Position numbers and translations under genes: made by a program
Assembly: GCF_007990755.1 (NCBI RefSeq)
Contig: NZ_BJXA01000061.1
Location: 1-54,979, forward strand
Length of the DNA: 54,979 nucleotides
DNA from: Nocardia ninae NBRC 108245
GTDB lineage: Bacteria; Actinomycetota; Actinomycetes; Mycobacteriales; Mycobacteriaceae
Direction of reading: 5' to 3'
Shown here: positions 5,806 through 54,979 of the stretch, in pieces
Layout of the letters: every line of letters starts with the position of its first letter
Position numbering within the stretch: the first letter of the stretch is position 1
Notes under the pieces: generated by a model
Seen by the model: the letters and a program-made list of their open reading frames with translations, nothing else
What the model was told of the DNA's origin: nothing
Databases searched by the model: none

Positions 5806-6017
5806 TTCGAATTCCTCCAAACGGACGGATAAATCCCGATGGCCGGAGATTAAGCCTGTCTGTCGGTTCGGTAAAACCCCAGTTGAGAGTGGGGAAGGGG
5901 GGTGGCTCGGCTGTCGTGCGGCGCGGGCTTTCAGCGCTGAATCAGCTACCGGATAATTTCGGAGCCGGCATTGCGTTCCGCATGGGGAGAGCAGTTCCCT
6001 TTTGCGGTCGGCTTACG

Positions 6018-44798: not shown

Positions 44799-46989
44799 GG
44801 GCCTCGCGCGGCACGGTAGTAGCGCTCTCGCCGAGCGGCAGGATCGAATCGGCGAGGCGGTCGATGACGGCGTCCTGGTGACTGATCACTATGAGGGCCA
44901 CGCCTTTCCGGCGCAGCTCGTCGAGCAGATCGAGCACGAGGTCTTGCGTGCTCGGGTCCAGTGACGACGTGATCTCGTCACAGATCAGGATGCGCGGTTC
45001 GGCGGCGAGGGCACGGGCAATGGCGACGCGTTGTTGCTGGCCGCCGGACAGGTGACCGGGGCGGCGCAGCGTCAGGTGGTCGTCCAGGCCGACCGACTGG
45101 AGCAGGCGGTGGGTCTGGTCGCGTGCGGCGGGGGAGTCCATGCCGTGGAGTAGGCGCAGCGGGCGGCCGATCTGGCTGCCGATGCGATAGGACGGGTTGA
45201 GGGAAGTCGCGGGGTTCTGGAACACGAGTTGAATGGCGCGACGGTGGTCGATGGTTCGGCGATCGACGCTGGAATGCAGTGGGGCGCCGTCGAGTTCGAC
45301 CAGACCGCGAGCGGGTGCGTGCAGGCCGGCCAGCGCTCGGGCGACCGTGGTCTTGCCCGCACCGGAGCGGCCCGTGATGGCGAGGCACTCGCCGGGATGC
45401 AGCGTGAAGGAGACACCAGCCACGACCGGCCGGGGGTTGCGGTGGGTCACGGCGAGGCCTTCGACCCGAAGCATCGGTGCAGCCTTCGGGCGGAATGCGC
45501 GCGAAGGTGTTGCGGCCATGGGCTTCTGGTCGCGGCACGGTGCGCTCGCGACGACCTTGCCCCGGTCCAGCTCCAGTACCTCGTCGATCAGCGGCGCGAT
45601 CGTGGGCAGATCGTGGGTGATGACGAGCAGTGTGGTGCTGTCCTTGATTCTGCGCAGCGTCCGCAGCAGTTGGTCGCGGGTCTGTGCATCCAATCCGGTG
45701 GTCGGCTCGTCCAGCACCACGAGTGCGGGCTTGCCGAGCAGTGCCATCGCGAGCAGCACCCGCTGCTGCTGACCGCCGGAGAGCTCGTGGGGGAAGCGGC
45801 GCCGGAACTCACGATCATCGGGCAGATCCACTTCACGTAGGGCCTGGGCGACCGGGTCGACACCGAATGTGCCCCGCAGGCGGGCGATTTCGCGCAGGGC
45901 GGTGCCGATGCGCATGGCCGGATTCAAACCGGTCGAGGGGTCCTGCGGCACATAGCCAACCGCTCCGCCGAGACCGACCGTGCCCGAGGCTGTCAGCCCG
46001 GCGGGTAGCGCGCCGAGCACCGCCAACGCGAATGTGGTCTTGCCCGCGCCGGAAGGACCGACCACGGCCAGACCGTGCCCCGGCGGCAAGCGTAGCGAAA
46101 TGCCTTCCAGTACAACAGTTCCCGAGGCATCGCGGACCGAGAGTCCGTCGACCGTCAGACCATCCGCCGTAGAAACTGCCGAAAGACCCGACGCCGCCGG
46201 TCGATTCACCTCGAAGGCCCGGTCGGTGACCATATTGACCGACACCACCAGCACCATGATCAACAGCGCCGGTGCGAGCACCGCCCACGGCTGCACGCCG
46301 AAACCCGGCCGATTCTCGGTGATCATGAGCGCCCAGTCGGGGGAGGGCGGGCGAAGTCCGAGTCCGAGGAAGCCGCTGACCGCGACCATCGAAATGCTCG
46401 CCGACATCCGCACGCCCGCATCGGCCAGCACCACCGATCGCAGATTCGGCAGCACCTCGACCACCGCGAGGCGCCACAGCGGTTCACCCCTGGCCCGAGC
46501 CGATTCCACGTATCCGGTGGTGGCGAGTTCCAGTACGCAGGTGCGGACGATCCGGATGATCCAGGGCACCGAGGCCAGCGCCGCGGTCACCACGAGCGCG
46601 ACCGGACCGGCCCCCAGCGCGGTTGCGATCACCGCGAGCAACAGGAACCAGGGCACGACGACTATCGCGTCGACCGGGAGCATGATCCAGCGGTCCAGGC
46701 CGCGGCGCAGACCCGCGAGCAAGCCGAGCCCCAGCCCGAGCGCGTACGCGACGATCAGCACCAGCCCGGCGAGCGACAGCAGCGGCAGCCCGCCGTGCAG
46801 GACCCGCGACAGCACATCGCGGCCGACCACATCGGTGCCGAAGAGATGGCGGCCAGTCGGGGGCTGGAACGGAGGCGCGACCACCGCGGTCGGCGCGTAC
46901 GGCGCGAAGACCGGGCCGAGCACCACGAGAAGCAGCACCAACACGGTGACCAGCAGCCAGCCGGAGCGAATCCGGCGTCGCGCCGTCAT
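44755..46989 (-). CDS. Fused permease-ATPase-ATPase of a peptide/nickel-type ABC transporter
   Basis: The product has 744 residues from ATG 46989, which overlaps the upstream permease stop (ATGA). Residues about 1-275 are a DppC/NikC-type permease ([18 protein letters not shown], then helices and the [24 protein letters not shown]-type loop). Residues about 280-480 are one ABC ATPase (Walker [10 protein letters not shown] near 310, LSGGQQQR near 400). Residues about 505-740 are a second (Walker [10 protein letters not shown] near 539, LSGGQQQR near 651). Usually these are three proteins (DppC, DppD, DppF). The import substrate is suggested by the upstream cobalamin riboswitch: cobalt, or a corrinoid or related ligand. 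Confidence 0.92.
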
Positions 46990-47960
46990 GCTCGCTCCGT
47001 CAGCGCCAGCTGCCGGGCCCGCGGACTCACCAGCAGGGTCAGCAGATCGGCGATCAGGTAGATCGCTATCCCGACCGCCGCCATCAGCACCGCGGCCGAC
47101 TGGACGAAGGGAAAGTCGCGAGCCGAGATGGCGCGCAACAGTTCCTGCGATAGACCCGGATAGTTGAACAAGGTCTCCACCACCGCGACACCGCCGATCA
47201 ACCCGACGACCGAACCGGCGAGCGGATAGACGGACGCCGACACCGCATTGGGTGCGACATGCCGCAGCAGCAGCCGCAGCCCACCGATGCCGTTGAGCCG
47301 TGCGGTCCGAATGTAGTTGCCTGCCATGACTTCCGCGGTCTGCGCCCGCACCATGCGCACCGGATGCGGTGCCAGCCCGATCAACAGACAGGTCACCGGC
47401 AACACCAGGATCTCCGGCCGCTGCCACGCGTTCATGCCGCTCGGCAGCAGCGAGACGGCGGGCAGGAGGTGCAGCGTCAGCGACACCGTCGCCACCAGCA
47501 GCACACCGAACACGAAGGACGGCACCGATTCCGCCGCGAGCGCGACCGCACTGATCACCCGATCGGTCCGGGTTCCCGCGCGGGCTCCGGCCACGAGTCC
47601 GAGTGCGAGTGCCAGCGGGAGCAACAGTGCGGCGGTGAGCAGCGCGAGGGTGACACTGTTGGTCGCGCGGCCGAGCAGGACATCACTCACCGGCCGGCCC
47701 GAGATCAGCGAATGGCCGAAATCGCCCTGGAGGAAAGCGAACAGCCACTCGGCGAAGCGCACCGGTGCGGGCCGGTCCAGTCCGAGTTCGGCGCGCAGTG
47801 TGGTCAACTGCTCCGGCGTGGGGTCGCCGCCGCCGTCGCGCGACAGCAGCACCGTTGCCGCGTCCGAGTCCAGTGCTTCGAACAAGCAGAAAACCACGAG
47901 CGCGACGGCGAACAGCACGCCGATCCCACCGCCGACCCGCCGTGCGATATAGGCGATCAC
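46986..47960 (-). CDS. Peptide/nickel-type ABC transporter permease (DppB/NikB-like)
   Basis: The product has 324 residues from GTG 47960; the frame extends upstream into the binding-protein gene but the family start is here. Six helices are expected. AYIARRVGGGIGVLFAVALVVFCLFEA is helix 1. RAQTAEVMAGNYIRTARLNGIGGLRLLLRHVAPNAV is the cytosolic EAA loop that contacts the ATPase, and VETLFNYPGLSQELLRAISARDFPFVQ follows it. It sits between the binding protein and the fused permease-ATPase, overlapping or within 10 bp of both, so all three are one operon. Confidence 0.93.
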   Translation of the reverse strand: MIAYIARRVGGGIGVLFAVALVVFCLFEALDSDAATVLLSRDGGGDPTPEQLTTLRAELGLDRPAPVRFAEWLFAFLQGDFGHSLISGRPVSDVLLGRATNSVTLALLTAALLLPLALALGLVAGARAGTRTDRVISAVALAAESVPSFVFGVLLVATVSLTLHLLPAVSLLPSGMNAWQRPEILVLPVTCLLIGLAPHPVRMVRAQTAEVMAGNYIRTARLNGIGGLRLLLRHVAPNAVSASVYPLAGSVVGLIGGVAVVETLFNYPGLSQELLRAISARDFPFVQSAAVLMAAVGIAIYLIADLLTLLVSPRARQLALTERA

Positions 47961-53371: not shown

Positions 53372-54064
53372 CTCGGTAGTTCTCTTCTTGTCGACGATTC
53401 AGCGTGCGACGGAATGGATCTCGTCAGGACAGCTTCGCTGAGCAGTGTGTAAGACACCGACTTGCCGATGAGCGCGTGGCGCCGTGCCCGCGCTCCGGCA
53501 GGCGGTCCGGCCCCGCGTGACTACGACACCGCGGGTCATTGCGCTCGAATGGCCGGGTGCGTCGAACTTCCATTGTGAATATTTTCATCCGTGGGTAATT
53601 GAGTCCAGGCCATACCCGCCGACCAGTCGGCATCGTCCACCGGAGAAATCCATTCGGCGTGCTTACGAATTCGACACTATTCAGGTGCGCAGTAGGGGTC
53701 GACGCAAAGGCCATGGGGGACTATGGTTGTGACCTACCAGCCCTCGTCCCGAATCTGTCTCGATGCCGAGATGTATTGTGGGACACCGAAGTCCGCTGCC
53801 TGGTCCCAGCAGTCGACCACCTCTGTGCATTTTAGGTGGAGTTATGTCCTCATATGCCGAATATTCGGATCGCCGCATCGCATTGCGCCCCTTACGGATT
53901 CGAGCGGTCGGTATGTATTCGGTGTGATTTCCCACCGCCGCTGAAACATTGTTGCGCACGGCCTTGTCGCAATGATAATTCCCGAAGAATTCGAGCTGTC
54001 CCTGGCGCGCGTATTGCGCTGCCTGGGTCCATGAGAACGATATGGAAGAAAGGAGGTGACAAAA
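53372..54064. other. Long non-coding stretch upstream of the lasso peptide gene
   Basis: About 690 bp without a convincing gene; short frames on both strands have no ribosome site or recognisable product. The segment from about 53560 to 54050 is clearly richer in AT than the rest of the window, as is usual for regulatory regions before a natural product cluster. It contains one possible promoter (53952-53979). Confidence 0.5.
53952..53979 (+). promoter_or_regulatory. Possible promoter of the lasso peptide operon
   Basis: TTGCGC and GATAAT are separated by 16 bases, about 85 bases before the precursor ATG. The -10 has one mismatch to consensus; the -35 matches three of six. Confidence 0.3.
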
Positions 54065-54181
54065 ATGACGAAGATGCCCTACATCGAGCCCCTGGTGATT
54101 TGCCTGGGCGCGGTCGAGGACCACACCACGATCCTCTTCCGCGGCGTGCCTGATCTGGTCAGCCACGGCAACCTGATCTAG
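54065..54181 (+). CDS. Lasso peptide precursor (new core sequence)
   Basis: The product has 38 residues, with ATG at 54065 after AAGGAGGTGA. Residues 6-21 (YIEPLVICLGAVEDHT) fit the lasso leader pattern YxxPxLxxxGxFxxxT position by position, with Val for Leu and Val for Phe. Thr21 takes the penultimate leader place needed by the leader peptidase, so cleavage is expected after Thr22. The core is then ILFRGVPDLVSHGNLI, 16 residues with Asp at position 8, the only acidic residue in it. That allows an Ile1-Asp8 isopeptide ring of eight residues threaded by LVSHGNLI. A lasso cyclase gene follows. Ile at position 1 is uncommon. Maturation and activity are inferred. Confidence 0.88.
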   Translation: MTKMPYIEPLVICLGAVEDHTTILFRGVPDLVSHGNLI

Positions 54182-54201: not shown

Positions 54202-54241
54202 GTGGTCCCCTCCTTTCGGCACGTGACGGGGAGGGGGCCAC
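54202..54241 (+). terminator. Attenuator-like hairpin between precursor and cyclase genes
   Basis: GTGGTCCCCTCC (54202-54213) pairs with GGAGGGGGCCAC (54230-54241), 12 pairs including one G-U, around a 16-base loop. It lies 20 bases after the precursor stop. Partial termination here would give more precursor than enzyme mRNA. Confidence 0.65.
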
Positions 54242-54271: not shown

Positions 54272-54979
54272 ATGGACCATTCCCCACTTACCGTGGACTA
54301 CCTCGGTTGCGCCGGCCGAGCGACCCTGCCCCGAGCTGGGGCTCCCGTCGACTTCACCAGTGCGCCCTTCACCGCCTTCCCCGCGCGCAGTGTCCCGGAG
54401 AGCCCGAATTACTTGCGGCAGTGGACAAGAGCGGGAACGCACCCGACTGTCCGGCCCGCGCACCCGAGCGATCGAGCCCACCTCGCGCTGGGCGGCACCC
54501 TCACCGGAGTCTTCGACGATGCCCTCGCCGAACGGATCACCGCCACGCTCATAAGCGGACGGTATGCGGATCTGGCCGAGCTACCGGGCGACCTGGTCGG
54601 TTGCCTGGTCACCGACGATCGAGTCTTCCTGTTCCGCAGCCTGTTCACCCGAGACACTCTGTTCTACAAGCAGTCCGGCCACACGCTGGCATGGTCCAGC
54701 GATCCCGCCGACCTCGTCCCCGACACCCTCGACCGGCTGGACCGGGAAACCATCTGGCGAATCTGCCGCGGCGACAGCATCTTCGCCTATCCCGAGTTGG
54801 GCTTGCTCCGCCCCGGCCACCTGCTGGTGTTCGACGGTGTGGCGGCCGAGGTCGTCCAGTACGACCGGATCACGCCGAAGCCGCTGCCGCGGGGCAGTAC
54901 CGCGCGGGACTACGCGGAGCGAGCATGGGAACTTCTCCTCGCCGCGACCCGGCCTTACGCGCACAACGGTCACATCGGA
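54272..54979 (+). CDS. Lasso peptide cyclase (asparagine-synthetase-like), 3' truncated by the window
   Basis: The first 236 codons are present, from ATG 54272 with GAGAGG upstream; ATG 54254 has no site. Proteins of this family are about 600 residues. The part seen is the glutaminase-like N-terminal domain (ELPGDLVGCLVTDDRVFLFRS, then TLAWSSDPADLVPDT, then LGLLRPGHLLVFDG), and it lacks the Cys2 needed for glutamine hydrolysis. The ATP-pyrophosphatase SGGxDS motif must lie just to the right, because the fragment stops at RPYAHNGHIG. This is the lasso cyclase position and layout: it activates the Asp8 side chain as an AMP ester and closes the ring. The RRE and peptidase genes should follow. 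Confidence 0.88.
   Translation, partial: MDHSPLTVDYLGCAGRATLPRAGAPVDFTSAPFTAFPARSVPESPNYLRQWTRAGTHPTVRPAHPSDRAHLALGGTLTGVFDDALAERITATLISGRYADLAELPGDLVGCLVTDDRVFLFRSLFTRDTLFYKQSGHTLAWSSDPADLVPDTLDRLDRETIWRICRGDSIFAYPELGLLRPGHLLVFDGVAAEVVQYDRITPKPLPRGSTARDYAERAWELLLAATRPYAHNGHIG

Follow-up and report, generated by a model that had tools for sequence, protein, structure and literature searches.

The window analysed here is a complete contig (C61) of 54979 bases from a Nocardia closely related to N. suismassiliense (genome G000), and its last kilobase very probably specifies a peptide tied into a lasso-shaped knot, with the enzyme genes continuing on another contig of the same genome (C71). We put the full biosynthetic reading, a class II (disulfide-free) lasso peptide cluster in the order A-C-B1-B2, at a probability of about 0.87. 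The genes, their order, their motifs and their conservation are direct observations. What they represent is a small, conserved family of lasso peptides whose first residue is unusual and variable, not a new kind of system.

The lasso precursor gene (A) occupies 54065..54181 on the + strand, 38 codons plus stop, and a strong ribosome-binding site, AAGGAGGTGA, lies just 5′ of its ATG (54050..54059, +); the AAGGAGGTG within that site is conserved in all six aligned Nocardia loci. The full precursor is the leader MTKMPYIEPLVICLGAVEDHTT followed by the predicted core ILFRGVPDLVSHGNLI (54131..54178, +). This 38-residue frame was proposed in an earlier note on the same DNA, and it is confirmed by direct reading, by the ribosome-binding site and by homologues in five other Nocardia genomes. 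The homologues are 58-79% identical, and 100% in the nearest relative. Among the six precursor sequences dN is below dS in all 15 pairs, with values that are rough for so short a gene; together with the homologues this argues that the frame is under selection.

The leader had been said to match the motif Y..P.L...G.F...T at every spacing. Its Tyr, Pro, Gly and Thr are indeed correctly spaced, but Val stands in place of both Leu and Phe, and the strict motif has no match in any of the window's six reading frames. A relaxed form, Y..P.[LVIMF]...G.{5}T.{8}[DE], which was composed post hoc with the peptide already known, matches once in those six frames, at the precursor, and none of 40 copies of the window generated by a first-order Markov model contains it. 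The precursor carries the marks by which we recognize one: the Tyr/Pro/Gly leader pattern, Thr at −2 and an Asp or Glu at core positions 7-9. The 16-residue core with Asp at position 8 holds, provided that the leader ends after ..HTT.

The 5′ part of the lasso cyclase gene (C), 236 codons at 54272..54979 (+), is cut by the contig end. Its start lies 90 bp 3′ of the precursor (54272, favoured by relatives) or 72 bp (54254), so the cyclase frame does come after the precursor as was claimed, but across a gap and as an incomplete gene rather than directly. The remainder of C is on C71 (47299-48321, −; protein part beginning IGLLLSGGMDSS). From the high end of that contig the gene order is rest of C, then B1, a 91-aa PqqD-type RRE (47018-47293, −), then B2, a 172-aa Transglut_core3 protein (46503-47021, −). 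A B2-domain search of the genome gave a single match, located on C71 some 1.5 kb short of the high end, and a second B2 model pointed to the same single place with a score just below its cut-off.

The C71 part of the cyclase contains LSGGMDSS, the SGGxDS motif of the asparagine-synthetase-like cyclases, and scores 60.1 bits with PF00733 (cut-off 21). B1 is PqqD-like as expected of a lasso RRE (PF05402, 45.2 bits, cut-off 23.4), and its best PDB match (E 0.0025) is TfuB1 (6jx3), which we take to be the RRE of fuscanodin/fusilassin from Thermobifida fusca. B2 scores 28.5 bits with PF13471 (cut-off 26), as befits a transglutaminase-like leader peptidase. The earlier note had proposed looking for B1 and B2 genes and for SGGxDS in the completed cyclase. 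Both checks are positive, because C71, not the window, carries the rest of C, B1 and B2, and the contig ends meet in a relative. In N. suismassiliense S-137 (G127) both contig ends map to a single locus, where C61 finishes at position 5896 and the C71 end begins at 5891, an overlap of six bases. Four more relatives show the same meeting of the two alignments, to within a few bases. From these five relatives, in which the cluster is unbroken, we infer that C61 adjoins C71 in the source genome; the two ends meeting at one locus would therefore make the cluster A-C-B1-B2.

The NCBIfam lasso models all remained below their cut-offs: 21.6 bits for the G127 protein with the cyclase model NF033535 (cut-off 525), 49 bits with the B1 model NF033530 (cut-off 70) and 31.1 bits with the B2 model NF033537 (cut-off 33). 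The window's own part of the cyclase, taken by itself, matched no Pfam or NCBIfam family, and the G127 cyclase had no PDB match at E 0.001. Since the NCBIfam models fall short and two contigs share the cluster in this genome, it may escape automatic mining. Immediately 3′ of B2 in the source genome is a 5.9-kb stretch (L004 4593-10525, on C71) that is missing there in N. suismassiliense G127; it encodes an ArsR-GNAT (acetyltransferase) fusion, two FAD oxidoreductases and an MFS protein, and is perhaps an arsenic-type island.

The precursor was found in six of 150 genomes of the genus and a cyclase match at E < 1e-20 in seven, the source genome included in both counts. The Nocardia cores are ILFRGVPDLVSHGNLI (G000, G127), ILFKGVPDLVSHGNLI (G067), LVFKGVPDLLSHGNIL (G136, G092) and ALTHGHPDLLGHGDIL (G131); among their carriers, the cyclase search of contigs identified N. 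suismassiliense S-137 (G127), Nocardia sp. CDC159 (G092) and N. transvalensis BJ06-0148 (G136). The seventh Nocardia cyclase genome, G041, has a core of another type, NGDWVLSD... Its locus (L023) is another lasso cluster with a cyclase of the same clade and an adjacent ABC exporter, and its core NGDWVLSDAGGAYRGCWSGGDNGCGSK, with two Cys in the tail, would close an Asn1-Asp8 ring if cut by the Thr rule considered below. The cyclase search yielded two of 401 genomes in a sample of the family (the source genome and G092) and two of 394 in a sample of the class (the source genome and G731), figures that may miss some because only three candidates were scored per genome. A further 18 weak precursor matches in the 401 family genomes (E 0.0066 to 0.098; window and G092 excluded) were taken as chance; 17 lie in frames of at least 185 aa and one in a frame of 100 aa. 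Over an order-wide sample of 61 genomes the precursor profile matched the window's own precursor alone.

G731 belongs to a second genus, g52, which is probably Streptomyces because precursors labelled lagmysin- and citrulassin-type occur in it. Seven of 219 g52 genomes, drawn from a larger group, have the cyclase at E < 1e-40. Four have cores related to those of Nocardia (QLRRGVPDVLGHGNIL, QLRRGVPDLLGHGNIL in G863, QLRRGTPDLLGHGNIW, QLRNGVPDLLGHGNIL), and the other three have cores HNGPLPPD... (one) and WLTIGQTFD... (two). The former, in G914 (L082), is HNGPLPPDSPNTRALV, with a predicted His1-Asp8 ring; the latter, in G922 (L083) and G946 (L055), is WLTIGQTFDNVITTHRRL[RS], with Trp1-Asp9 as its predicted ring, and all three loci have cyclases of the same clade. 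The precursor profile matched 37 of 218 g52 genomes at E up to 0.05: the four with related cores (E <=7e-21), the two with WLTIGQTFD kin (E ~1e-6) and 31 with weaker matches only. Twenty loci taken from this search include two with lagmysin-type and four with citrulassin-type precursors. The G863 cyclase is not considered broken: the in-frame TGA precedes the gene's own start, in a region where the cyclase match extends back across the precursor in a different frame.

Homologous A, C, B1 and B2 are present in five other Nocardia genomes and four g52 genomes. The nine distinct precursors share Tyr, Pro, Gly, Glu and Thr(−2) in the leader and Gly5, Pro7, Asp8, His12 and Gly13 in the core. This one product family of the clade retains the core pattern G-x-PD-x-x-x-HG across cyclases that are only 42-45% identical between Nocardia and g52, from which it follows that the core was either kept over a long divergence or moved early with the cluster. 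On the cyclase tree, which leaves out G863, the HGN-type cores had one origin in 34% of 200 bootstrap trees.

A hairpin of 17 pairs is predicted between A and C (54202..54241, +). All six Nocardia loci have a predicted G+C-rich stem at this place, without a T-run; it is weak relative to shuffles in four of the six, and covariation gives no real support because only two of 24 pairs show a double change. The hairpin is possibly a brake, or an mRNA 3′ end, that would favour A over C. At two g52 loci, L079 (G863) and L048 (G731), the cyclase frame starts at or next to the precursor end, as against the window's 90-bp gap with its hairpin.

As to the product, the cut site, ring, threading, plugs and role can be proposed as follows. 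B1 would bind the leader via Tyr/Pro/Gly. B2 would cleave between Thr(−1) and Ile1 (..H-T-T|I), which would account for the conserved Thr at −2. The cyclase, using ATP, would link the amine of Ile1 to the side chain of Asp8 with the tail kept threaded through the ring during closure, and the tail would then be locked by His12 and Asn14. Such a product would have 16 residues, with a computed [M+H]+ of 1731.990 and [M+2H]2+ of 866.499; it may serve as a small molecule, antibiotic or signal, with selection acting on the mature product.

The assignment of residue 1 depends on where the leader ends. A passage of PMC10368454 describes Thr at the penultimate leader position as the rule, with one penultimate Ile exception. 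By this rule position 1 of the family is Ile, Leu or Ala in Nocardia and Gln in g52, and the ring closes on Asp8. The lagmysin-type precursors that we found read ..KVTG-LAGTGSPD.. and the citrulassin-type ones ..K[REK]TG-LLQ...ND.., and published products of the lagmysin and citrulassin families begin at the Leu after Thr-Gly (table in PMC12427821). We favour the Ile1-Asp8 ring because of the rule and because precursors with a similar Thr-Gly junction give Leu1 products. If B2 instead cut one position upstream, just behind the conserved Thr, the result would be a nine-residue ring with a small first residue, namely Thr1-Asp9 here, Thr1 or Ala1-Asp9 in the other Nocardia and Gly1-Asp9 in g52. 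Residue −1 is indeed small (Thr, Ala or Gly) in all nine distinct precursors, and Gly is the usual first residue of lasso peptides (Gly 39, Ala 3, Thr 0 among the 62 cores of the same table, PMC12427821), but the kin in G922 and G946 (..LTG-WLTIGQTFD..) would then require a ten-residue ring, and both the penultimate-Thr rule and the published Leu1 products point the other way. We consider the earlier cut very unlikely.

A peptide that is cyclised yet not stably threaded (branched-cyclic) has to be weighed, since the tail may not be secured by a Leu-Ile end this short and by His12/Asn14. The chain runs for just two residues beyond Asn14. In lariatin the tail is trapped by the pair His12 and Asn14, and truncation by a stop codon at position 16, 17 or 18 left only an eight-residue ring fragment (passages of PMC4960549). 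Against this, lagmysin is equally long at 16 residues (table in PMC12427821), and across the nine distinct precursors position 12 is always His and position 14 either Asn (eight) or Asp (one), a pattern which by analogy with lariatin suggests that the same two residues act as plugs in the Nocardia product. The unthreaded form is accordingly rated as quite improbable, and a threaded lasso remains our reading.

A silent or decaying cluster, its genes retained and its product not made, is the other alternative, and it arises because no exporter is linked. An ABC exporter (D) is common in lasso clusters, not universal. At the six Nocardia A-C-B1-B2 loci the search found no close homologue of the G731 exporter next to the cluster; its strongest matches were ABC-ATPase-like stretches several kb off in two of them, at a distance of ~8 kb (upstream) in the window and ~4.5 kb in G131. 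No ABC transporter that could account for export of the product was found beside the cluster. The exporter is present at G731, G863, G041 and G922, and at G891 and G939 the match is only 33% over one third of the query. Yet C, B1 and B2 are open frames in five relatives, the precursor shows dN below dS in every pair, and lasso clusters without an exporter exist. Silence or decay is therefore unlikely, and an active lasso cluster is preferred.

The N-terminal residue is a known constraint in lasso engineering, and the first residues of this clade stand out. Assigned position 1 at the 14 clade loci is Ile at three, Leu at two, Ala at one, Gln at four, Asn at one, His at one and Trp at two, and Gly at none. 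The 62 cores of the review table begin with Gly (39), Ser (9), Cys (7), Ala (3), Leu (3) or Trp (1), and none of these 62 begins with Ile, Gln or His (PMC12427821). Ile1, called unusual in the earlier note, is not a one-off, as the family varies between Ile, Leu, Ala and Gln; a hydrophobic C-terminus, also called unusual, is not so, for lagmysin ends ..SLL. We give an even chance to the idea that this cyclase clade, in Nocardia and a second large actinomycete genus, is specialised in non-glycine ring starts (14/14 loci, 12 distinct cores). If true, Ile1, Gln1 and His1 lasso peptides would be among the products of the clade.

The Nocardia cores had no match in open-licence PMC text, the literature covered here, and the kin cores (including HNGPLPPDSPNTRALV and WLTIGQTFDNVITTHRRL[RS]) had none there either; lagmysin and lariatin strings did turn up there, in one paper. 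For lasso peptides in Nocardia, a passage found in the same corpus names only 'lassopeptide' as a class (PMC12153302). The named strain N. suismassiliense S-137 carries the identical core ILFRGVPDLVSHGNLI, so a direct search for the product is possible. The lasso family is clean and testable, its enzymes seem to tolerate bulky or unusual residues at the N-terminus, and it is a good target for chemistry.

We compared the core with 41 of the 62 review-table cores. Lagmysin (LAGQGSPDLLGGHSLL) is the nearest, with p 0.0024 as a single test and ~0.1 after correction for 41. Both cores have 16 residues and a first residue other than Gly, and five of the 16 positions are identical (Gly5, Pro7, Asp8, Leu9, Leu15); the tail is SHGNLI in Nocardia and GGHSLL in lagmysin. 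Membership of the lagmysin family, which the core suggested, was rejected since the cyclase lineage is not shared. At two g52 loci with a lagmysin-type core one residue off published lagmysin, the Asn_synthase proteins match the clade at ~28-32% identity along less than 20% of the query, and with the Nocardia query one of the two gives no match at all. Their cyclases fall outside the clade, on a long branch of the tree, so that the likeness of the cores is unmatched by descent of the enzymes. Other cores with a single-test p < 0.05 were BI-32169 (0.006), moomysin (0.020), lariatin A (0.028) and caulosegnin I (0.037), none of which survives correction for 41.

Lariatin A of Rhodococcus jostii (GSQLVYREWVGHSNVIKP) shares the eight-residue ring and has Val10, His12, Asn14 and Ile16 at the same positions, but differs in its Gly1-Glu8 ring, its 18 residues and its exporter LarE, and lacks Gly5 and Pro7. 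The lariatin family was also rejected, as its Gly1-Glu8 ring, Tyr6 and Trp9 are not found in the letters of the Nocardia core. Despite the matching plug residues, lariatin-like antimycobacterial activity is not predicted, because Tyr6 and Lys17, which matter for that activity in lariatin, are absent. Fuscanodin/fusilassin (WYTAEWGLE...) has a bulky first residue in common with the Nocardia core, although that residue is Trp and the core is unrelated (table in PMC12427821). Metanodin, from a soil metagenome, differs in its Asn1, its lineage and its core, but as described in a passage of PMC12670498 it likewise has an unexpected first ring residue beside Thr(−2).
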